Below, one piece after another: positions 4,211 through 49,051 of a stretch of 53,263 nucleotides of DNA. The notes under the pieces are model-generated. The model saw only the letters and a list, made by a program, of their open reading frames with translations, ran no database searches and was not told where the DNA came from. This stretch comes from a virus. The position numbers were made by a program, and so were the translations under genes. The first letter of the stretch is position 1; every line of letters starts with the position of its first letter. The stretch covers positions 1 through 53,263 of IMG/VR virus record IMGVR_UViG_3300036852_000419; one strand, given 5' to 3'.

Positions 4211-4392
4211 GCAAGCGTGTCGAATATCTCGTGACTTGTGCTGTGCAAACGAAGGGTCAACAGCAATGGACCGTGATGGCTACAAGTGAAGAGGAAGCCA
4301 AGTTGCGCGTTGAAGAAGGTGAGGGCGAAATAGCTGGAGAGGAATTTGATGTTCAGTCTTCCAAGGTAGTGAAAGTCGAGGTGAACTCATGA
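4207..4392 (+). CDS. Hypothetical acidic protein (61 aa)
   Basis: GTG start overlaps the preceding stop, and the ATGA overlap with the ATPase gene follows. The pattern of beta strand (VEYLVTCAVQ), turn, strand (WTVMATSEEEAK), helix and strand resembles a small alpha/beta fold. Function is unknown; strict coupling suggests stoichiometric expression with the ATPase. Confidence 0.65.
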   Translation: MSKRVEYLVTCAVQTKGQQQWTVMATSEEEAKLRVEEGEGEIAGEEFDVQSSKVVKVEVNS

Positions 4393-5210
4393 GCGACTTC
4401 CTCAACAGCATCATTCCCAGCGCACCCGTCGCTGCTAGTGTGACCGAGCCTCGCTCCCTGCTCATCTACAGCGATTTCAAGGTCGGGAAGAGTCAACTCG
4501 CGAGCGATCTCACGATGCGCGCCAAAGCGCTCTGGCTCGACTACGAGGACGGGAGCGAAGGGCTCCCAGGCGTCAAGATCAACGTGATCAAGCAAGTGAA
4601 CGAGATCAATGCCACGCGGCCAGAGAATAACAAGCTGAAGCGCATAGACTTTCTGCTTCAGCTCTGGCGTGAGCTTGCGGCTGAGACGCCTCCGCGCTTC
4701 GATGTGATCGTGCATGATAAGTTGGATAATCTTGAGGAGTGGGCGACCAAGTGGGCGACGGCATATTACAAAAGTACGGTCATTGGCCGTAACTGGACGG
4801 GCGATAATGTGCTCGAACTTCCTGAAGGGTCCGGCTACAGCTACTTGCGCGACAAGTTCTTAGAGCTATGGAACGCGCTCATGGCCGCTTCACCGCGCTC
4901 GATTCTGTTCACCAGCCTCCGCATGAAATACGTCGGCAAAGCTGACACGATGGTCGAGAGCAAGGATCTGGATCTGTGCGGAAAGGTGAGAAAGATCGCG
5001 GCGGGGTTCACAGACGCGCCGAGCTATATGTGGCGGGATGCACAGAGTGCGAACTGGCTGAGCTTCAAGACGAGCGAGAAAGGGACTTTCTGCGGGTGCA
5101 GGATTCCTTATCTGGAGGGGAGAGAGATCAAGATCAGCGAGAAGATGAGCGACGGGAAGGTGAAAGTGAACTGGCACGAGATTTATCCGAGCTTGTTTCC
5201 GAAGGCATAA
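4389..5210 (+). CDS. RecA/Sak4-like P-loop ATPase
   Basis: 273 residues with a Walker A loop YSDFKVGKS (27-35), a Walker B-like strand (DVIVHDKLD, about 102-110) and downstream strands typical of the RecA-like AAA_24/Sak4 group. That group promotes single-strand annealing or recombination in phages, normally with an SSB encoded beside it. An SSB-like gene does follow two genes later, and a Cas4-like nuclease lies upstream, so the three probably form a recombination set. Confidence 0.75.
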   Translation: MSDFLNSIIPSAPVAASVTEPRSLLIYSDFKVGKSQLASDLTMRAKALWLDYEDGSEGLPGVKINVIKQVNEINATRPENNKLKRIDFLLQLWRELAAETPPRFDVIVHDKLDNLEEWATKWATAYYKSTVIGRNWTGDNVLELPEGSGYSYLRDKFLELWNALMAASPRSILFTSLRMKYVGKADTMVESKDLDLCGKVRKIAAGFTDAPSYMWRDAQSANWLSFKTSEKGTFCGCRIPYLEGREIKISEKMSDGKVKVNWHEIYPSLFPKA

Positions 5211-5475: not shown

Positions 5476-6202
<727 letters not shown>

Positions 6203-6219: not shown

Positions 6220-9200
6220 GTGAGCGCTGGCGACCCCAGCTCTCCGTTCGAACGATCAGCTCTAGGCTCGCCCCGTCATAGTCGGACTGGGGCTGATCGG
6301 TCGAGCGAGTGGTGGAAGAGAGACACGCCCATAGCCGATGTTGGGAGTGAGAACTTACGGCAAGTGATCACTGTGCAGAGTGAGATTCTCTGCCTCGCTC
6401 GAATGATTTCAATGATCAAGATCCCAAACCAATTCCCCGCGCTGGAGCCTCAAGGCCCCACGCGCATCGCCATCGTTCTCGATTTTCCCGACCGTGAAAG
6501 CGCTCACCAGGGCGTTGCGCTAGGCGGAGAGGCAGCGAGGCTGCTAGAAGGCGCCCTGGGTCACGTTGGGATCGCGCTCGCGAGCTGCTTCGTGGGCAAC
6601 GTCAGCCAGGTCACAGCCACGAGCTTCAACGTGCTGGCCTGGGAAGGTGAGGAGGTGCAGAGCGGCATCGCACAGCTTCGCGCTGATCTTGAACGCTTCA
6701 AGCCCAGCATCGTGGTTTGCATGGGCACGGCGGCTCTCCATCTCTTTCGCGTCGGCAACCTCGCCCCCCGCAAAGTGAAAGCAGGCTTTGATTGGCCGAG
6801 CAAGATTGGGAGCTGGAGGGGGTCGTTGTTCGAGAGCATGTGGCTGGCTAGCTGCGTGGAGAACGTGCCTGAAAGTGTGATTGTTCATGGCGTGAAGTGT
6901 CTTGCCGCTCTCCCCCCCGCCATGGTCCTTCGCGACTACGGGCTTCAGGCTTACTATCGGACGGGAGTGGGAGGGTTGGGGGATTTGGAGAGACTCAAGC
7001 AAGAGATGGGGATCTGTGAACTAACGCTTCCTCAGCGCAGTATCTGCATCGCAGCCCCTGAATATGGCTGGGGCGTGGAAGGAATCTGTGCGGAACTTTA
7101 CAAGCTGAAGGTCGCGGGTGTGCCGCTGGGCCAGGACTTAGAAGGCTATCCTGGGAATGTGACGTGCATGGCTTACGCGCCCGCTTCGAATCGAGCGCTT
7201 GTAATTCCATTCGCGCATATCGATGGGACTTCGGTGTGGAGCGAGGACGAGGAGACGCGATTGTGGCAAGCGCAGCGGGATTTGATTCTGGAGAACACAG
7301 AGCTTACGAAAGTCGGTCAGAATTACTACTGCTACGATGCGTTCGCTCTCGCGTGGACCTACGGGATTGTGGTTAAGAATATAGAAGACGCTATCCTCGC
7401 GTGGTGGGAATTGTTTCCGGAGCTTTTGAAAGGACTCGCGACTCAGACGAGCTTGCTGACGAGACAGCCGTTCTACAAGCCGGACAAGGAAGACGGCGAG
7501 TTGCAGTTCAAGAGCGATGAGGAGTTCTGGACTTACAACGGGATCGATGCGTGCGTGACGCTGGAGTGCTGGGAGAGGGAGAAGGCGTTGATGGACGCGG
7601 GGCAGCAGAGTCATTATCAGTTCAATATCTCGTTGCTTCCGGCGATTAGGTACATGATGCTCCGAGGCATCAAGTTTGACAAAGGTCGCGCGAAGGAGGC
7701 GAGAGAGAAAGCGTCGCGAGGGGCGATGGAGTTGCAGGCGGAGATTGACCAGGTGCAGGCTCGCGAGGATGGGCTGGGAACAGCGTTGTGCGATCTCTAT
7801 GCGAATCTGATGTCGAGCACGGCGTCTGAGGAATGGTTCGCAGCTCTCACCCTCCGCTGTCTCGGATGCAAGAATCCTCGCGTCAAGGTCGAGGTCGTGG
7901 AAGAGCGCTGGCAGCCGATGAGATGGAATGGAAAGAAGTGGGTGAAGGATGGGAAACGTGTTGATGCAGCGGGACGTGAGTTGCTCAGAGCAAATCCGAT
8001 TTTCAAATGCTTGGAGAAAGACACAGAGCCTTGCGTAGTGATCGAGTTAGGTCTCCTTTGGCTCAAGCCCATGCACAAGCTCACGCTCAAGCGCCAGCCC
8101 TTCGCGCCCGCCTCTCTCTCCGACTGCGAGCCTCACATCTTGGAGAGCAAGAGAGCTGAGTGGAAGAGAGTGAAAGCGATTTGGAAGGAATTAAGCTATG
8201 GACAAACTGCTGATAGAGGAAATTCGTCTGTTAAGATGGCGATTGATGAGAGAAGCGGATTACATACAAGATCATCTGCTCTCCTCGGTGAACTCTCCAC
8301 TCTTCTCGGTCTCGCCGTCAACATCGGGAGCACGAACCAAGGCGGCGACGCGCAGAGGTTCCTCTACGAAACGTGCGGTCTCAGGAGGATCTACAAAGAC
8401 GCGTGGACGGGGAGGTTGTCGTGGGAGGCGGAAGGGGAGTGGAGGAAGAGGCTCAAAGCGAAAGGATTAACATGTGAAACTGAAGCGAATCAAGAGACGC
8501 TTGGAGGATGCGATGACGTGGCTGGAGCCGCCAATGGACGCGCAGAAGGCGAGGATTCATCTATTTGCAGCGCTAAACCTGCTGGAAAGCGTTTCTCCAC
8601 CGATCAGCAAACCCTGGATAAGCTCTACGCGGCGACGCAAGACGTGAGGGTGTTGTGGTGCTTGCAGCAGCGGAGGCTGAGGCTCGCAGCCACGAATCTC
8701 GACAAAGAGATCGATGACGACGGGAGGATCAGAAGCTCGATCAGTCTCGTGAAAGAGACCGGGCGCATGGCGGCGAGTGAGAGTCCGATGGGAACGGGAA
8801 CGAACCTCCAGAGCTGGGACAAGCATCATCGTCATGTGATGGTGGCGGACGAGGGCTGCGTGATGGGGCAGTGTGATCTTGAAGGCGCTGACTCGTGGAC
8901 CGTGGCGGCGGAGTGTGCGGCTCTCGGTGACACGAAGATGCTGGAGGATCTGAGAGCGGGGCTGAAGCCTGCGAAGGGGCTTTGCTTCGGTTACTTCGAA
9001 CCGGGACTCTATCAGAATGCGAGCACGGATCTCATGAAAGCGCGCTTGAAAGAGCTGACGCTTCCGGACTGGCTTTATCCAGGCGCAAAGAGCAGTCTTC
9101 ACGGGGGGTGCTACGGGAGCGGATGGCGCACGACGATTGATACGATTCTGAAGTATTCGATGGCGGATCTGCCACTGGATCTGAAGACAGCGAGACCGAT

Positions 9201-9705
9201 TGTGCTTTCGAAAGAGCAAGTGGATAAGCTGAGAAGCGCGCTATTTCTACGCTACCCTGGCATCAAGGCTTGGCACGCGAAGACTGAGAAGCTCTTGCTC
9301 ACGACGGGAGTGCTTGAGATGAACACGGGGCACCGCAGGAGGATCTATCAGCGCAAAGCGGAATTCAAGCAGGGGAGAAAGGTCGCGTGTCATGAGACGC
9401 TGAAGGAGGTGCTGAGCAGTGCACCTCAATACTACACCACTTACAGCATCAAGCTCGCGCTACGAAATCTGTGGTATGCTGATGATAATCGCGATGGCGA
9501 GAAGTTGAAGGTTGAGCCTCTACTCTGTGTGCATGACTCGATCTTGACTCAATGGAGGCGGGAGGATGACACTTTCGCTCGTCCTTTCATGCGAGAGATT
9601 TTTCAGAACGAGATTCTGATCGCGGGGCAGAGGATTGTCATTCCTGCCGAAGGGTTTTGTTACAGTGACTGGAGCATGGACAAAGAGAAAGCTGAGAAAC
9701 TATGA
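6220..9705 (+). CDS. Family A DNA polymerase with N-terminal uracil-DNA-glycosylase-like domain
   Basis: 1161 residues. The proofreading exonuclease shows Exo I Asp306-x-Glu308, Exo II Asn368...Asp373 and Exo III Tyr439...Asp443. The polymerase shows motif A Asp886-Leu-Glu888, motif B Lys957...Tyr965-Gly966 and motif C His1105-Asp1106. Residues about 80-200 resemble a UDG-superfamily fold (RIAIVLDFPD, GGEAARLLEGAL, SIVVCMGTAALHLF), so the enzyme may couple base inspection to synthesis. The GTG start is uncertain; ATGs at 6403 and 6412 would drop about 61-64 residues. Between exonuclease and palm lies an enlarged Cys-containing region and two stretches (8197-8280 and 8470-8600) whose own-frame sequence is atypical. 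Confidence 0.9.
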   Translation: MSAGDPSSPFERSALGSPRHSRTGADRSSEWWKRDTPIADVGSENLRQVITVQSEILCLARMISMIKIPNQFPALEPQGPTRIAIVLDFPDRESAHQGVALGGEAARLLEGALGHVGIALASCFVGNVSQVTATSFNVLAWEGEEVQSGIAQLRADLERFKPSIVVCMGTAALHLFRVGNLAPRKVKAGFDWPSKIGSWRGSLFESMWLASCVENVPESVIVHGVKCLAALPPAMVLRDYGLQAYYRTGVGGLGDLERLKQEMGICELTLPQRSICIAAPEYGWGVEGICAELYKLKVAGVPLGQDLEGYPGNVTCMAYAPASNRALVIPFAHIDGTSVWSEDEETRLWQAQRDLILENTELTKVGQNYYCYDAFALAWTYGIVVKNIEDAILAWWELFPELLKGLATQTSLLTRQPFYKPDKEDGELQFKSDEEFWTYNGIDACVTLECWEREKALMDAGQQSHYQFNISLLPAIRYMMLRGIKFDKGRAKEAREKASRGAMELQAEIDQVQAREDGLGTALCDLYANLMSSTASEEWFAALTLRCLGCKNPRVKVEVVEERWQPMRWNGKKWVKDGKRVDAAGRELLRANPIFKCLEKDTEPCVVIELGLLWLKPMHKLTLKRQPFAPASLSDCEPHILESKRAEWKRVKAIWKELSYGQTADRGNSSVKMAIDERSGLHTRSSALLGELSTLLGLAVNIGSTNQGGDAQRFLYETCGLRRIYKDAWTGRLSWEAEGEWRKRLKAKGLTCETEANQETLGGCDDVAGAANGRAEGEDSSICSAKPAGKRFSTDQQTLDKLYAATQDVRVLWCLQQRRLRLAATNLDKEIDDDGRIRSSISLVKETGRMAASESPMGTGTNLQSWDKHHRHVMVADEGCVMGQCDLEGADSWTVAAECAALGDTKMLEDLRAGLKPAKGLCFGYFEPGLYQNASTDLMKARLKELTLPDWLYPGAKSSLHGGCYGSGWRTTIDTILKYSMADLPLDLKTARPIVLSKEQVDKLRSALFLRYPGIKAWHAKTEKLLLTTGVLEMNTGHRRRIYQRKAEFKQGRKVACHETLKEVLSSAPQYYTTYSIKLALRNLWYADDNRDGEKLKVEPLLCVHDSILTQWRREDDTFARPFMREIFQNEILIAGQRIVIPAEGFCYSDWSMDKEKAEKL
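8198..8470 (+). other. Overlapping frame inside the polymerase gene, first segment
   Basis: In the +1 frame relative to the polymerase, GGAAGGAATTAAGCT precedes an ATG that encodes a strongly helical start (MDKLLIEEIRLLRWRLMREA). The polymerase frame over the same bases reads as a polar, atypical stretch. The frame stays open for 90 codons, but only the first ~30 look protein-like. It could be a nested small gene or a captured remnant. Confidence 0.35.
8474..8647 (+). other. Overlapping frame inside the polymerase gene, second segment
   Basis: Four bases after the stop of the first overlapping frame, AAAGGATTAACAT precedes a GTG in the same +1 frame. It encodes 57 residues with a basic helix (KLKRIKRRLEDAMTWLE) and a second helix (AQKARIHLFAALNLLESV). 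The polymerase frame here reads as a Gly/Glu/Ala-rich linker. A nested gene or remnant is suspected. Confidence 0.35.
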
Positions 9706-38158: not shown

Positions 38159-38610
38159 TGGATGAGATAGCTAAAAGTGAAATACATGGCACGATTCACA
38201 GGATCTATAGCTGTGAATTCGAGTTGAGCACGATCATTAGCAGAATCCGCATAGATAGCTGAAGCCTGACCGGAAATCTCGGTTGAAACCCCCGTGCCGC
38301 CACATTGATTAACTGACGAGAAATTAGATGCCACAGGCAAAGACACACCAAGCTGAGTCGCCACAGGTATCAGTGTGGGATCAATGTCAGCCCGACCTGA
38401 CACAAAAACCATCGATCCAACTCGGCTATACTGACAAACATAAGCTGTCGAAGCTGAGACGTTTGCGACCGCCGTGAGCACGGGCGTATAAGTTCCACTC
38501 GAAACTTGAGCAACATTATTCAGATTATCAACAGAAGTGGCTGAGTGTGCAACCCACCAAAACAGCATAATCGCCAATAAGCCAACCCAGAATATACGCG
38601 AGATTTTCAT
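38155..38610 (-). CDS. Secreted-type fibre-domain protein (151 aa)
   Basis: ATG at 38610 overlaps the stop of the spike gene. The first ~24 residues form a Sec-type signal or membrane anchor (MKISRIFWVGLLAIMLFWWV). The remainder (SGTYTPVLTAVANVSASTAY, VGSMVFVSGRADIDPT) matches a beta-sandwich domain seen at the ends of phage fibres. A signal peptide on such a domain is unexpected for a virion part. Confidence 0.55.
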   Translation of the reverse strand: MKISRIFWVGLLAIMLFWWVAHSATSVDNLNNVAQVSSGTYTPVLTAVANVSASTAYVCQYSRVGSMVFVSGRADIDPTLIPVATQLGVSLPVASNFSSVNQCGGTGVSTEISGQASAIYADSANDRAQLEFTAIDPVNRAMYFTFSYLIQ

Positions 38611-40724
38611 GGACTCGGTTCCATTAGCAACCATGCCACAGTGCTTGTGTCACCGTTTGCGCTGCTTGTGATCGTAAATGACGTTGAGGCTGTGCGCGCG
38701 CTCACTCTCACGAAGCCCACAGTACCTCCGTCTGCGTTGCCAGTGAGAAAGATCCTAGTATTCGCCGTAACGCTTGTGTTGTTTACAACCACGCTAGCCG
38801 GACTTCCACCATCAAGAACAGCGGTTCCCATACGAGCATTGGAGCCCTCCTTAACTCTGAATCCAGCACCAGCTACCGATGTCTGAATATGCGAAATGGC
38901 TGATATTACGCCCGAGCCAGGATCAGATTCAGCACCTACATTAAGACTCCCGTTTATGGCAACTTTAGCTAGAGGAGCCGTAAATCCCCCCACACCTAGA
39001 TTCTGCCCCACGGTACTGATAAATAGATAAAGATTTCCATCTTGTTTAAACTCCGTGATGGTATTAGCTCCAGACGCAGTTGAGTCTGTATGAAGTTCAA
39101 GTGACCCAGTGGCGGAGTTTCCATCGATTTTAGCGAATGGCGTTACACCCGCTCTTTGGAACCTTAAAACAGGCGTGCTGCCGGAAATCACTAAGGTAGC
39201 AGCTGGGTCATTTGTCCCGATACCCACATTAGAGTTTAATTCTATACTTCCTGTGCCTGAAGGAAGAATACTGAAGCTTATATTATCGTCTCCTGAGCCC
39301 GCAGTATCAGCGGCCAAAGTAATGCGGTTAGAAGCGATTGTGGTTTTTAAGCGTTCGTGATTGCCTCCATTGTCATTGAGTCTCTGTGGGGCGTAAACAG
39401 TTCCACCTTGCGGGGTATAAAAATCAGGTGTGAGAAAGACCCCTTGGTCTAATAAAGTTTGAAACCATGCATTAGTAGCCGTTCCGACACAGTCGGAAAA
39501 CAGTGAAGGAATCGAAAATATCCCACCACTGACGGTATTATTCGACGCAAATACAATAGGGCGATGTGTGGCGGTCCATGCAGTTGACCATTTTCCACCT
39601 GTGATCTGTGTATTAATCAATAATCTATTTCGATTTGCACCGCGAACAGATGGGGTTGCAAAATCCCATGCTAAGCCAAGTCTGAATAGATCATAAGTTA
39701 TAGACTCACTAAACATCTGATCAAAACAAATACTCCTAGTTCCTGTTTCATCCCCTTGATTCAAAGGATCTATATGAACCCCAACCAAACATGATTCTAT
39801 TCTAGGAGTCGTGAAAATCTGATTCGACACTCTGGTCGTGTTATCTGTAGTCAGAATTAGTATTCCGTAATGGCATTGCTGTGCTGCAAATCCCGTCCAG
39901 TTCGCAAGAGATGAATTTCCGTCGCAATGCAATCCTATAAAATTATCCATGCTGGCAACCTTCGTTGCGTTGACCGGAAACGCAAACTCTGTCCTCAACC
40001 CTTTATAGCAACGACGTATAAGAATGTTATCCAATCTGACATCAAGCGCATTTAACACTTCCAGACCAACTGTAGTGGTTGTATTAGTGACTACACCTAT
40101 GGGATTTGAGGGCTCAGGACCGAGAATGTAGAGATTTCGAATTGCTGTAAATCCGCGTTCATTCACGTTGGCGGCTGACGTAGCTCCTATTTTAAGAAGG
40201 CTCCCAGAAGTTAATCCAGAAGCTGAAAAATCAAGCGTAGCTCCGTTGCCTTCAATGACCCAGGTTTGAACCGGGCTATTCACAGAGTCACTCTGGAGAG
40301 TTTTTACTGAAGTTAGAACGTAAGTCTTTGGTTGAAGTTTTAAAGTGGTTCCGTTAGTGCGCAGAAAATCTAACCCAGCTTGAAATGCTGAATCCCCAGA
40401 GCCGAAATATTCTGGAAATACCTCACCATCAAATTGTCTTATCCATCTCCCTGCTACTCCCGTGGACGGAAATACTATGCCGAGATTCGTGGCTGTGACG
40501 CTTGCAGGAGTGAAAAAGAATAGGCCACCTCCGCCATCATTAGCTGTGACACGGCCTGTAACGAGAGCAGAGAGACGGCTGTTGGCAGGGACGTTCTGCA
40601 CTGTGGCAGCAACCATCTCAGTTACGGTTTGATAACGAACTGTAGGAGTTGTGCCTGTGCCGCCTTGAGATAATGCGAGAATGATGCTCATCGCGAAGAT
40701 AAGCAATGAAGCTAGATGTTTCAT
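38607..40724 (-). CDS. Tailspike-like beta-helix protein with signal peptide
   Basis: 705 residues from the ATG at 40724. Residues 1-20 look like a Sec signal peptide (MKHLASLLIFAMSIILALS). About 80-500 show the right-handed beta-helix style of pectate-lyase-like spikes (FGSGDSAFQAGLDFLRT, TLKLQPKTYVLTS, repeating Asn/Thr/Gly turns). The last ~87 residues share a domain with the 514-residue protein (KEGSNARMGTA). Could degrade host polysaccharide, either as spike or as a secreted depolymerase. The coding DNA is more AT-rich than its neighbours. Confidence 0.68.
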   Translation of the reverse strand: MKHLASLLIFAMSIILALSQGGTGTTPTVRYQTVTEMVAATVQNVPANSRLSALVTGRVTANDGGGGLFFFTPASVTATNLGIVFPSTGVAGRWIRQFDGEVFPEYFGSGDSAFQAGLDFLRTNGTTLKLQPKTYVLTSVKTLQSDSVNSPVQTWVIEGNGATLDFSASGLTSGSLLKIGATSAANVNERGFTAIRNLYILGPEPSNPIGVVTNTTTTVGLEVLNALDVRLDNILIRRCYKGLRTEFAFPVNATKVASMDNFIGLHCDGNSSLANWTGFAAQQCHYGILILTTDNTTRVSNQIFTTPRIESCLVGVHIDPLNQGDETGTRSICFDQMFSESITYDLFRLGLAWDFATPSVRGANRNRLLINTQITGGKWSTAWTATHRPIVFASNNTVSGGIFSIPSLFSDCVGTATNAWFQTLLDQGVFLTPDFYTPQGGTVYAPQRLNDNGGNHERLKTTIASNRITLAADTAGSGDDNISFSILPSGTGSIELNSNVGIGTNDPAATLVISGSTPVLRFQRAGVTPFAKIDGNSATGSLELHTDSTASGANTITEFKQDGNLYLFISTVGQNLGVGGFTAPLAKVAINGSLNVGAESDPGSGVISAISHIQTSVAGAGFRVKEGSNARMGTAVLDGGSPASVVVNNTSVTANTRIFLTGNADGGTVGFVRVSARTASTSFTITSSANGDTSTVAWLLMEPSP

Positions 40725-40731
40725 GTGAAAA

Positions 40732-41115
40732 TCAGGCCCAGCCGACATTTGTCCCGACTGTGCCTTGGAAAGTGTATTTCGCACCAGTGTCGAGAGCTGT
40801 GACGAGCTGCCCACAGAACAAGCCTGTGACCACACCGTTAGGATCAGTGGGCGTGCATCCAGGAAGTGCGTTGACAATGTTCGTGTTGATCTCACATAGA
40901 AGCTGAACCATCACGAGCCGAAGCATTCCCGCTGGCAGCGCCGCAAAGCACGCTGCATCATCCATCAGATCTTGAACATTGCATTCAGCCACAGGATCTA
41001 TCGCTTGAAGAATTCGACAGAGAAGTACTGCTTGGAGCGCATCGAGCTGGCCGCTGGTTTCGGCTGCGAAACACGCTGCATCGGCTGTGAGTTCTGAAAC
41101 CGAGCACTCAGCCAT
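40732..41115 (-). CDS. Cys-rich helical-repeat protein (127 aa)
   Basis: Two tandem units of about 38 residues, each with TADAACFAA/MDDAACFAA, then a helix ending LLCRI/LLCEI, so two Cys per unit at matching places. A beta-like C-terminal end (TALDTGAKYTFQGTVGTN) follows. A shorter relative is encoded next door. Between fibres and capsid, it may be a capsid-bound or linker protein. Function is unknown. Confidence 0.6.
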   Translation of the reverse strand: MAECSVSELTADAACFAAETSGQLDALQAVLLCRILQAIDPVAECNVQDLMDDAACFAALPAGMLRLVMVQLLCEINTNIVNALPGCTPTDPNGVVTGLFCGQLVTALDTGAKYTFQGTVGTNVGWA

Positions 41116-41475: not shown

Positions 41476-43020
41476 TTATGGAGTCGGTTTGATAATGAGC
41501 CAGTTGACTACGCTGTCGTCTTGAGCGTCAGTGCTATTGACAGTGAACGAAACTCCGTTTGAGATCGTGTAACTTAAATGACCGAATTCAGCAGCAGTGC
41601 CGGAGACGCGCTGAATGAAAATCCGATCCCCGGTGGCTGCGCTAGTGTTAGAAACCGCGATAGTGCCGCCAGAGAGAGTAGCCGTCCCCATCCTGGCATT
41701 ACTGCCCTCTTTAATCTGAAATCCATTGCCAGCAGTGCCAAGCACAACATTTCCATTGCTCGCGGTAATTGCTCCGAGAGTCGCTGTGAGCGTGCCAGTG
41801 GCTGTGACGTTACCAGTTGTTCCCGCGTCAACAATCGTCATCAAGCTGTTTGAGCCGTCGGTGACATTCACAGTTCCATCCACGGTGTTATTCAGTGCCT
41901 CGCCGTTAACTAGAGTCAGAACTCCCGTGGATGAGAGAGTGAGCTTTGTAGTGGCTGTCTCACTCGCACCTGTCTGGAAGATGAGCGAGGAGGCGTTGCT
42001 CGTGGCAGAGAAAGTGCCTTCTGCAACTGTGGCGATGGAGCCCGCGACAAGATTCGCATCAGTGCCTGCGGCGTCAAGCGGAGCGTAGAAATTGATCCTG
42101 CCAAGCACGTCGTTGAGAACTACTGAGGGTTCTTTGGTGCCGAGAGTGAGAATCGCCCCGGATGTAGTAAGACCGCCTTGGATTTCAGTTAAAGACGCAG
42201 GTGCCGTAGTGCCGACGCCGACAAGCCCAGCACTTGTAATTCTCATCCATTCCGATATTACACCCCCAGAATTACCCGTATGAAACCGAAGAGCGCCAGA
42301 TTCGTCTCCAGCAGACCCATTCTCTTTATAACCGTCGATAATTCCCAAAGTACTAGTTGACGTTTGTGCTGTGTTGTAACCGGAAAAGTAAAGCGTCGCT
42401 CCGACACCCTGAACCATCGAAGTCGTGTCTCTTAAATATAAAACAGCATTACCGGAAGAGCCAAAACTCTTAGCTACTGTTTTATCCACGTGTAAAGCCG
42501 TCAACGGATTAGCTGTCCTGACACCTACATTGCCAGAAGTTGCGTTAAGGATCGTATTGTTACCGATATTGTTGATATGAAGATTCTTACCGCTGAAGGT
42601 CTGAATGTAAGCGATGTCGTTATCTGCGCCGATACCAAGTAAATTGGTAGCACCTGCACCACGCAAGAGTTTCCATGCATACTCTGTGTCGATAGCTGGA
42701 TTAACAGCGGCTGTCTGATAAGCCACACTCGTCGGTAGCTTCCACCAGCGACCGTTGTTGTTCACGGGCTTGAAGACTGCGTAAACGTTCGTGACAGCGC
42801 TAGAGTTACCGTCGTAGAAGAACATCCCACCCAGACCGTCGTCGCGAGCACTGCCACCACCTACCCAGGCGGTGACTTTGGCGTCGGAGCCAAAGAGCGT
42901 GATCTGGAGCAGCGCGTTGATAGAGTCCACGCGATACTGAGTGGGACCGGACTGAGCGAGCGCGGGCAAGGCTGTCGAGAGCAGAGCTAGCGTGGCGAAG
43001 AGAGAAGTGAATAGTTTCAT
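41476..43020 (-). CDS. Fibre-like protein with signal peptide (514 aa)
   Basis: ATG at 43020 gives a signal peptide (MKLFTSLFATLALLSTALPALAQ split after about residue 23). The body is beta-rich with repeated Thr/Gly/Asn turns typical of phage fibres (LLGIGADNDIAYIQT, VGVRTANPLTALHV, LTLSSTGVLTLVNG). The last 84 residues share KEGSNARMGTA and the WLI.P.P ending with the 705-residue spike-like protein. Located directly after the major capsid gene. Confidence 0.62.
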   Translation of the reverse strand: MKLFTSLFATLALLSTALPALAQSGPTQYRVDSINALLQITLFGSDAKVTAWVGGGSARDDGLGGMFFYDGNSSAVTNVYAVFKPVNNNGRWWKLPTSVAYQTAAVNPAIDTEYAWKLLRGAGATNLLGIGADNDIAYIQTFSGKNLHINNIGNNTILNATSGNVGVRTANPLTALHVDKTVAKSFGSSGNAVLYLRDTTSMVQGVGATLYFSGYNTAQTSTSTLGIIDGYKENGSAGDESGALRFHTGNSGGVISEWMRITSAGLVGVGTTAPASLTEIQGGLTTSGAILTLGTKEPSVVLNDVLGRINFYAPLDAAGTDANLVAGSIATVAEGTFSATSNASSLIFQTGASETATTKLTLSSTGVLTLVNGEALNNTVDGTVNVTDGSNSLMTIVDAGTTGNVTATGTLTATLGAITASNGNVVLGTAGNGFQIKEGSNARMGTATLSGGTIAVSNTSAATGDRIFIQRVSGTAAEFGHLSYTISNGVSFTVNSTDAQDDSVVNWLIIKPTP

Positions 43021-43080
43021 TTTCAGCTTAGAGATAGAGTTCAAGTTTTTCAGGTTCAAAATGAGAGTTCAGCGTCGTAA

Positions 43081-45942: not shown

Positions 45943-46071
45943 GCTCTCTCTCGTGACGCTCGTATTTCAGACAACAACTCTTTCCGTGCATGTGGAGCCG
46001 CTTAGAACGGATGAGCGTCACAACTCCCTTTCTGATTTCTCTACATGCGCGATTTTCTAAGGAATGGTCAA

Positions 46072-46689
46072 ATGAGCAAAGCAACTCAAATCGGGACAGA
46101 CATCAGCAACGACGGACAGTTTACGGTGGACTGCTCGAAACCTTACATTGCCACAGTGGTCATCGAAGGCGTGTGCGATCTGTTGTTTCATCGCTGGTCC
46201 AACGAAGATGTGGAAGCTAAAGGGAATGCTGCTAAAGGCAGCAAAGCCAAGAAGCAGGACAACCTGGAGGCTTACGTGTATCGCACCGATGACGGGATGC
46301 TAGCTATTCCCGGCACTTACCTGAGAGGCGCAATTGTGGCCGCAGCCAAATTCAAGCAAGACCCACGCTCACCTCGCAAGTCAATGTGTGATCTGGCGAA
46401 GGCTGCTGTGGTACCGCTTACTGTACTGGCGTCACTTGGAGTGAAAGCTTGGGATTACGAGGACAGGCAGCGAGTCACAATCCAGCGCAATGCCATCACG
46501 CGCTGCCGTCCTGCTATGAAAACTGGATGGAGAGCTGAATTTAACCTGCTTTGCAATCTTCCAGAATATGTGTCGCCGCAGTGCTTGAATGAGCTTATTC
46601 AGAGCGCAGGGAGACTGATCGGGCTGGCTGATTTCAGACCTAGCTACGGAAGATTCTCAGTGATTGGATTTTCAGTCCATCAGGACTGA
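46072..46689 (+). CDS. RAMP (Cas7)-like protein
   Basis: 205 residues from the ATG at 46072, preceded by AAGGA eight bases upstream, one of the better ribosome sites here. An N-terminal strand (IATVVIEGVCDLLFH, 26-40) leads into a Lys-rich loop (50-62). IPGTYLRGA (79-87) matches the IPGSSL(K/R)GA motif of RAMP-superfamily proteins. The C-terminal GLADFRPSYGRF (184-195) matches their Gly-rich loop. RAMP proteins bind RNA in type III/I CRISPR complexes, yet no other Cas gene is present. The gene is followed at once by the pentamer array and a terminator, which suggests that the array RNA is its ligand. Fold assignment is by motif only. Confidence 0.6.
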   Translation: MSKATQIGTDISNDGQFTVDCSKPYIATVVIEGVCDLLFHRWSNEDVEAKGNAAKGSKAKKQDNLEAYVYRTDDGMLAIPGTYLRGAIVAAAKFKQDPRSPRKSMCDLAKAAVVPLTVLASLGVKAWDYEDRQRVTIQRNAITRCRPAMKTGWRAEFNLLCNLPEYVSPQCLNELIQSAGRLIGLADFRPSYGRFSVIGFSVHQD

Positions 46690-46695
46690 GTTGGA

Positions 46696-46895
46696 GTAAG
46701 ATCGGATGGGGTGCGATGTGGTCTGGTTTGGTCGTGCTGGGTCCGGTTCGGTGTGGCGAGATGCGGTGCGATTTGGTCTGATCGGGTTAGGTAGTGTGTG
46801 TTGTGGTATGATTAGGCTTGGCACGGTTAGGTCAATCGAGGTCCGCTACGGTGCGGTTGCGGTGTGCTTGGTTAGGGTGCGTTATGTCAGGGTAT
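46696..46895 (+). repeat. Pentanucleotide-periodic RYNNG array (about 40 units)
   Basis: From 46696 the sequence divides into 5-mers in one unbroken phase. In the first 32 units position 1 is a purine in 29, position 2 a pyrimidine in all 32 (T in 27), and position 5 is G in 29; positions 3-4 vary freely. The last 8 units are looser. It starts six bases after the RAMP-like stop, and a strong terminator follows at 46898, so it is probably part of a transcript. Five does not divide by three, so coding cannot explain the period. Confidence 0.92.
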
Positions 46896-46897
46896 TC

Positions 46898-46936
46898 AAG
46901 ACTCAGGTCTCGAAAGGGATCTGAGTCTTTTCTTTT
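46898..46936 (+). terminator. Strong intrinsic terminator after the pentamer array
   Basis: AAGACTCAG (46898-46906) and CTGAGTCTT (46921-46929) form a perfect 9-bp stem with a 14-base loop, followed by TTCTTTT. Confidence 0.88.
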
Positions 46937-46981
46937 GTAACTGCCTCTGAGCCTTGCAAGCGAGAAGTGAAGAGAAAATGC

Positions 46982-47022: not shown

Positions 47023-47316
47023 ATGACCAACCCACTCGAAACAGCTTCAGTGCCTCTCGCGCTCCAGCCTCCCCCCCGCGAAGACCGCCGCCTGCGCTGG
47101 TATCACGCCAAGCTCGCGTTGGGGCTCTGCGGGACGTGTGGCTCGAAGCCGCGCGCTCAGGGCTGTGACGGAAAGCTGTCAGTGAAGTGTGTCGAGTGTC
47201 TGGTGAGCGCGAGAGCGAGAGAGCGCATCAAGCACGGCTGGAAACCGCGATATGTGAGCGGGATGGGCAGGCGAATTTGGCATGGAGCGAAGCGAAGTGA
47301 GGAGGTGGTGTCGTGA
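47023..47316 (+). CDS. Zinc-ribbon protein (97 aa)
   Basis: GGGAG lies 12 bases upstream. CGTCGSKPRAQG and CVECLVSARARER (Cys36, Cys39, Cys56, Cys59) form a zinc ribbon; the C-terminus is basic with Trp/Tyr (RIKHGWKPRYVSGMGRRIW). Nucleic-acid binding is plausible. Coupled to the next gene by GTGA. Confidence 0.65.
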   Translation: MTNPLETASVPLALQPPPREDRRLRWYHAKLALGLCGTCGSKPRAQGCDGKLSVKCVECLVSARARERIKHGWKPRYVSGMGRRIWHGAKRSEEVVS

Positions 47317-48514: not shown

Positions 48515-49051
48515 ATGCCTGACTTTCACTGCCCTAAATGCTGCATAAGCTGGCACAGCGAAGATGATCGATGTCCAAACTGTGTCAGCGATTCCACGAA
48601 CAACCCACTGCACGCGTATTGCGACAAGCCCATGACCCCACCACGACAACTCTCCCGCTCCACTCTCATCCTCATCATCTTCCTCTCGTTGCTGAGCGCT
48701 GTGGGTTATAAGCTGTGGGAACTCAAGAAAGCGAATGATCAGACCATAGAGCGCCTTCTCGCCGCGCGCAACGGACAGCCCTCTGCGACTCACACACAGC
48801 AGGCGCTGACTTTCTCGCGCCCCTGGCTGCGCTCGACCAACGGCGCGGCGCTCTTCGCGTTCACTGACAGCGAGTGGAGCACGCTCACGAATCTTTATCC
48901 TGAGAAGCTGGCTGAGATCACGATGCCGCCGACGCTGATCTTTGCTGAGGGCTATGTGATGAAAGTGAGCGAACGCGTGTTTGAGAGCCTGAAGAGCGAG
49001 CTGCCCGCGAGCTGCCTTCAGACCAACCCTGTCTGGTTCCTGAAGCCATGA
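48515..49051 (+). CDS. Zinc-finger and membrane-anchored protein (178 aa)
   Basis: CPKC and CPNC (6-9, 20-23) make an N-terminal zinc site. A Pro-rich break is followed by a membrane helix (about 47-65, STLILIIFLSLLSAVGY) and a soluble C-terminal domain (about 95-178). An internal ATG at residue 40 (MTPPRQLSR) could give a form without the zinc site. Bitopic, perhaps N-in. No family recognised. Confidence 0.6.
   Translation: MPDFHCPKCCISWHSEDDRCPNCVSDSTNNPLHAYCDKPMTPPRQLSRSTLILIIFLSLLSAVGYKLWELKKANDQTIERLLAARNGQPSATHTQQALTFSRPWLRSTNGAALFAFTDSEWSTLTNLYPEKLAEITMPPTLIFAEGYVMKVSERVFESLKSELPASCLQTNPVWFLKP

Follow-up and report, generated by a model that had tools for sequence, protein, structure and literature searches.

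The locus that begins with the gene at position 46072 of the window (the whole 53,263-nt stretch of viral DNA analysed here) is very probably a VIPR (Viral Interference Programmable Repeat) system, in which the RAMP protein Vipr is encoded together with a guide RNA array for the programmable repression of competing phages. VIPR was described in a 2026 preprint (PMC13142463), and our literature search found no other paper describing it. According to the main text of that source, phage-encoded RAMP proteins are bound to RNAs (vrRNAs) of alternating GGY and NN, the NN dinucleotides pair with DNA with one target base skipped per unit, and the complex represses transcription, can be reprogrammed and defends against phages. 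For the Vipr of Escherichia phage SUSP1, RNA binding and co-purification, dsDNA binding, repression and phage defence were all shown; among natural targets it names satellites and prophages as well as other VIPR loci, and it gives the vrRNAs that were characterised a length of 9-16 units followed by a structured tail, within a scheme of seven types with differing arrays (PMC13142463). The analyses below establish the fold of the window protein, its homology to a solved Vipr, the co-occurrence of gene and array and, for the family, the one-base-skip code and the identity of targets. The window locus most likely serves to repress competing phages in a programmable way, and we infer that its Vipr/array pair is expressed and acts as in SUSP1.

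Table 1. Positions of the features of the probable VIPR locus in the window.
Feature	Position	Strand	Basis
vipr gene, 205 aa, single-domain RAMP (Cas7/Csm3-like), member of PHROG 4652	46072..46689	+	homology and AF2 fold
AAGGA Shine-Dalgarno, 8 nt 5' of the 46072 ATG	46059..46063	+	sequence inspection
vrRNA repeat tract, 40 GGY/NN units, NN as guide code	46695..46894	+	period-5 z = 21.4, unit listing, scan
hairpin (14-bp stem, GAAA loop) followed by a T tract: intrinsic terminator and/or vrRNA 3' tail	46898..46936	+	hairpin

The Vipr protein

The vipr reading frame is intact from the ATG at 46072 to the stop codon ending at 46689; an alternative in-frame ATG at 46045 has no Shine-Dalgarno. The initial annotation had pointed to an IPGTYLRGA motif and a C-terminal Gly-rich loop, GLADFRPSYGRF, and both are present in the 205-residue product. 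Within this loop G184, R189, G193 and R194 are invariant across 58 relatives, and the window protein keeps all 26 invariant residues of the family.

Sequence searches with the 205-residue protein returned no match in Pfam and a match to phrog_4652 (E=7e-16), the family to which SUSP1 Vipr also belongs (E=1e-96). PHROG 4652, until now listed as 'unknown function', can accordingly be annotated as Vipr. Against the PDB sequences, phmmer gave a single significant match, the 'SUSP1 Vipr protein' of entry 36pp (E=5e-5); a profile built from the 58 relatives matched the same entry over residues 25-195 with E=8.2e-11, and HHalign with SUSP1 Vipr gave a probability of 98%, the window protein being only about 27% identical to it. 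The PADLOC Csm3 model, with E=0.03, was not a significant match to the window protein.

An AF2 model built from the 58 sequences (pLDDT 90.5) replaced a poor model built from nine (pLDDT 68.5). Its leading Foldseek and VIA-align matches were Csm3, Cmr4, type VII Cas7 or Cas7-11, with Csm3 and type VII Cas7 first in Foldseek (E 2e-7) and at Z 12-13 (maximum 13.0) over about 160 residues in VIA-align, so that the RAMP (Cas7/Csm3) fold claimed from the sequence is borne out by the model. Entry 36pp was not among the structure matches listed, which came from a structure library reaching to April 2026. The protein thus has the fold of the class 1 CRISPR backbone proteins Csm3 and type VII Cas7, with no significant sequence similarity to them. 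Csm3 and Cas7 polymerise on a guide RNA whose pairing is periodically interrupted; their period is 6 on a contiguous spacer, as against a period of 5 on GGY/NN RNA in the window. No Cas family was found among about 30 main open reading frames of the window searched against PHROGs (20 of them also against Pfam), and Tandem Repeats Finder detected no CRISPR-like tandem array in the window.

The repeat array

The repeat starts 6-11 bases 3' of the vipr stop codon and keeps one register over 200 bases with zero frame slips. Twenty-one of its 40 units are exact GGY and 28 fit G[G/A]Y; the remaining 12 lie mostly near the 3' end and may mean that the array has decayed in part. A few units at either end of the tract are degenerate. 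Unit positions 4-5 (NN) are near random. The period-5 information amounts to 83 bits, compared with 8.8 +/- 3.5 bits in shuffled sequence, and no signal was seen in the array at any period other than multiples of 5. In a scan for such arrays the tract scored 72 against a null maximum of 13.6 per 53 kb, and no second array of this kind was found in the window. Tandem Repeats Finder did not detect the array, because just three of the five unit positions are conserved.

The hairpin and T tract behind the array form an intrinsic-terminator-like site. The array lies directly after the gene, as noted in the initial annotation, and with this site behind it a single transcript could carry both vipr and the array. 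The hairpin contributes to the predicted RNA fold of 46690-46945 (z=-3.7), and a search of the window against Rfam found no known RNA family.

Co-occurrence of vipr and array in relatives

We found 266 vipr relatives in IMG/VR; the set analysed consisted of 80 of these, nine from an earlier scan and 35 loci on bacterial genome contigs, the latter mainly Phycisphaerales MAGs, with Stenomitos and Thermomonas also represented. Among the 115 loci with at least 400 nt of flank on each side, a GGY/NN array lay within 1 kb of vipr in 113, and only 14 of the 328 arrays in the fetched DNA sit farther off than 1 kb. The link between gene and array that had been suggested from the single locus is thus a property of the family. 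The two observations named beforehand as speaking against a protein-RNA system, an unrelated fold and homologues consistently without an adjacent array, were both looked for and neither was found.

These counts also bear on the reading of the array as a low-complexity or compositional tract (for instance a recombination hotspot or a packaging signal) that has nothing to do with the protein. Slippage can produce period-5 DNA of a purely compositional kind, but it does not yield near-random NN positions, and a compositional tract would not be expected to accompany vipr in nearly all loci while so rarely occurring away from it; we regard the chance that this reading is right as negligible.

The arrays of relatives are found upstream of vipr, downstream of it or on the opposite strand. 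Their median length is 18 units, with more than 16 units in 177 of 314 and a maximum of 106, and their 3' flanks differ from one relative to another. No hammerhead ribozyme was found in 19 related loci, and locus L090 gave one twister-like match below threshold. Clustering of neighbouring genes yielded no partner common to the vipr neighbourhood of the window. In one Stenomitos rutilans MAG a single contig carries two vipr loci (L116 and L117), separated by about 100 kb, whose arrays have the same relative positions.

Test of the one-base-skip guide code

The NN dinucleotides of the 328 arrays were compared with 3.0 Mb of related loci and contigs, with arrays masked and with 0-3 skipped bases. 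A skip of one base resulted in 33, 22, 14 and 10 match clusters at scores of at least 16, 17.5, 19 and 21, respectively, whereas shuffling the order of units gave means of 10.8, 2, 0.5 and 0. At scores of at least 19 there were no clusters in six further unit-order shuffles, none with skips of 0, 2 or 3 in the same 328 arrays and 3.0 Mb, and none with reversed or complemented guides; a smaller array set that included a 4-base skip as a control gave the same outcome. Off-register dinucleotides (Y+N1 and N2+G1), in which one base hardly varies, produced many matches and for that reason showed no excess over their own unit-order shuffles. The longest match spans 19 units and 35 of 38 guide bases (units 3-21 of the L020 array, matching L131). 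Several matches fall in homologous genes, so that the clusters are not all independent events.

Pooled, the arrays of relatives follow the one-base-skip code: NN is a gapped guide, GGY is the scaffold, and the matches of these arrays to genes in other phages greatly exceed the chance expectation. The gapped code of VIPR is thereby independently confirmed on a different and very large clade.

This result bears on what the filament proposed in the initial annotation is for. There, a RAMP protein polymerising on its own 3' UTR was put forward as an anti-CRISPR decoy, an mRNA protector or an autoregulator, in which case the NN bases would be uninformative. The RAMP fold suits that proposal, as does an array lying directly 3' of the gene, probably on the same transcript and with a terminator behind it. 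Arrays in relatives, however, also stand upstream or on the opposite strand, their NN bases match genes of other phages under one specific spacing, and for SUSP1 the preprint's main text (PMC13142463) describes an RNA that works as a guide. We therefore consider a decoy, protector or autoregulator very improbable, and the roles first suggested give way to that of a guide. The idea of periodic loading on RNA is retained, in that the short fixed repeat very probably reflects the spacing of subunits, RNA co-purification being the SUSP1 result reported in PMC13142463.

Targets of the guides in relatives

In the strong matches examined, the dinucleotide falls on codon positions 1-2 and the skipped base on the wobble position of true reading frames. 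Because it is mostly wobble bases that are skipped, synonymous changes offer rivals no easy escape. The genes matched encode an AlpA/HTH_17 excisionase-like regulator, DUF669 proteins, a PD-(D/E)XK nuclease, a ParB-methylase and ResIII helicases, and they also include the vipr genes of other phages. The targets thus belong to replication, recombination and the control of excision in related phages, whose vipr genes are among them.

Four guides directed against vipr fit the rival's gene better than the vipr of their own locus (20 versus 18 of 20 bases, 21 versus 17 of 22, 24 versus 20 of 26, and 21 versus 17 of 22). This is as inter-phage competition predicts and, over four cases, is no more than suggestive. 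Among vipr genes, the L093 guide fits best (24 of 26 bases) to the homologue G036:C1:9055-9633 (L047 5001-5567), for which an in-frame TAG was reported within the matched stretch.

Search for the target of the window array

IMG/VR was scanned with four 8-unit patterns and one 9-unit pattern from the window array (units 4-11, 10-18, 14-21, 22-29 and 28-35). Across these five scans of units 4-35, 16-base matches occurred at about chance level and no convincing target emerged; when matches were extended over the whole array, none was longer than 10 units. A 10-unit match in L146 lies outside any clear gene, with about 0.07 such matches expected by chance in that scan, and was set aside.

The best candidate is a 9-unit match. 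Units 4-12 agree in 18 of 18 bases with the C-terminus of a DnaC/IstB-like ATPase, in frame and at codon positions 1-2, in one phage family (L094, L097, L101 and L105), where about one 9-unit match of this kind is expected by chance, as estimated from the number of 8-unit matches. A search for relatives of this target returned the same four contigs only. The ATPase gene is a weak candidate for a target of the window array, and it would fit the class of target seen elsewhere.

The scarcity of matches, with no target above chance in the window-array scans, would also be expected if this phage carried a VIPR locus whose array is decaying or inactive, and the 12 units off G[G/A]Y, concentrated near the 3' end, agree with that. 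Against it stand a register unbroken over 200 bases, an intact protein with every invariant residue in place, and the poor sampling of the phages likely to be targeted. We judge a decaying or inactive array unlikely.

Long arrays and guide boundaries

The lengths of the arrays raise the question of how single guides are delimited in an uninterrupted tract. Matches in relatives use long tracts in part only: units 1-11 of 31 in L056, units 2-14 of 61 in L093 and units 19-28 of 30 in L029. Moreover, units 3-14 and 20-31 of L046 are the same as units 3-14 and 30-41 of L049, as in-register blocks with insertions between them, and two arrays in L007 have a 13-unit block in common. These patterns lead us to infer that a long tract consists of guides joined end to end. 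The 40-unit tract of the window is probably several tandem guides of about 10-19 units each, processed or read as separate segments, and would on this basis hold about three. The 'staggered arrays with overlapping vrRNAs' mentioned in PMC13142463 may be these long tracts.

A broader proposal is offered tentatively, as a possibility somewhat short of probable: the clade may represent an array form of VIPR that does not appear in the main text of PMC13142463. Its pentamer tracts, which are long (40 units here, 106 at most), uninterrupted and without tails, would each hold many guides and would grow and swap modules of about 12-13 units in register, in the manner of a CRISPR array without repeats or spacers, and the RNA would either be cut into segments or form one long filament that reads many overlapping registers.

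Several elements occur within or beside arrays of relatives. Short hairpins, for example GGGAC-TCGAAAGA-GTCC and GGGCC-GAAA-GGCC, break up the arrays at L025 5592-5996, L064 5625-5778 and L071 2130-2284, and may delimit single guides; the terminal hairpin of the window has a GAAA loop as in GGGCC-GAAA-GGCC. In L077 (1404-1897) and L082 (3363-3892) a recurring motif, GGATACTTTGT(T)..., stands between guide blocks and is possibly a guide tail. A structured-looking recurring element of about 70-90 nt, containing ...CCGCTGATCGGCGG...CCTAGCGATACACGAGAG..., lies between arrays at L090 4794-4860 and at L091 1035-1130 and 1334-1402, and Rfam had no match at this element. In phage DSL-LC04 (L012 4816-4891) a 12-unit array is flanked by the inverted repeat TCTTAGTGGGG ... 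CCCCACTAAGA.

Proposed mechanism and comparison with known systems

By analogy with SUSP1, Vipr would coat RNA from the adjoining tract, probably with one subunit per five-base unit, and its thumb would keep the GGY trinucleotide off the target. In each unit the NN bases, left exposed, would then pair with a DNA strand at two bases out of three, the other being skipped, and binding of the complex to matching DNA of a competitor phage would block transcription. No nuclease was recognised directly beside vipr. In Pfam and PHROG scans of the vipr neighbours, an HNH gene at 49048 was the sole match to a family of nucleases or DNA-binding proteins, and DUF6378 was matched at 47313.

The closest characterised system is the VIPR of SUSP1 (type II; PDB 36pp), as described in the main text of PMC13142463. 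Both consist of a RAMP protein of about 200 residues with a Gly-rich loop and an adjoining GGY/NN RNA, and both are phage-borne; the one-base-skip code and the targeting of competing phages, including other VIPR loci, are common to SUSP1 and the relatives of the window locus. They differ in that the window has a single uninterrupted tract of 40 units and a simple GAAA hairpin, whereas the main text of PMC13142463 gives SUSP1 four separate vrRNAs of 9 to 16 units with tails, the tail being pseudoknotted. In the window, GAY is tolerated in place of GGY, unlike in SUSP1 VIPR as described there. No vipr-accessory protein (vap) was recognised in the window with Pfam and PHROG, libraries that do not contain the vap families. 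The 40-unit length argues against type II and not against VIPR, since 9-16 units is what was reported for the one type that was characterised, and the main text of PMC13142463 gives no full account of the remaining six. TIGR-Tas, as outlined in PMC12045711, likewise combines a small RNA-binding protein with an adjacent tandem array of guide RNAs and is carried by phages; the protein family and the repeat logic are different.

Other features of the window

Megablast with positions 1 to 25 kb of the window as query returned no relative among named phages. The window encodes a Sak4-like annealing protein at 4389-5210 (+) and a DNA polymerase of 1161 aa at 6220-9705 (+), whose relatives in named phages are weak. 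Tail-fibre-like proteins are encoded at 38607-40895 and 41476-43059 (-); the C-terminus of the first is a K1-lyase C-terminal domain (PF24146, E=6e-24), which suggests that the phage may degrade capsules. Just 5' of the DNA polymerase gene, at 6169-6197, lies a perfect (GA)14.5 dinucleotide run.
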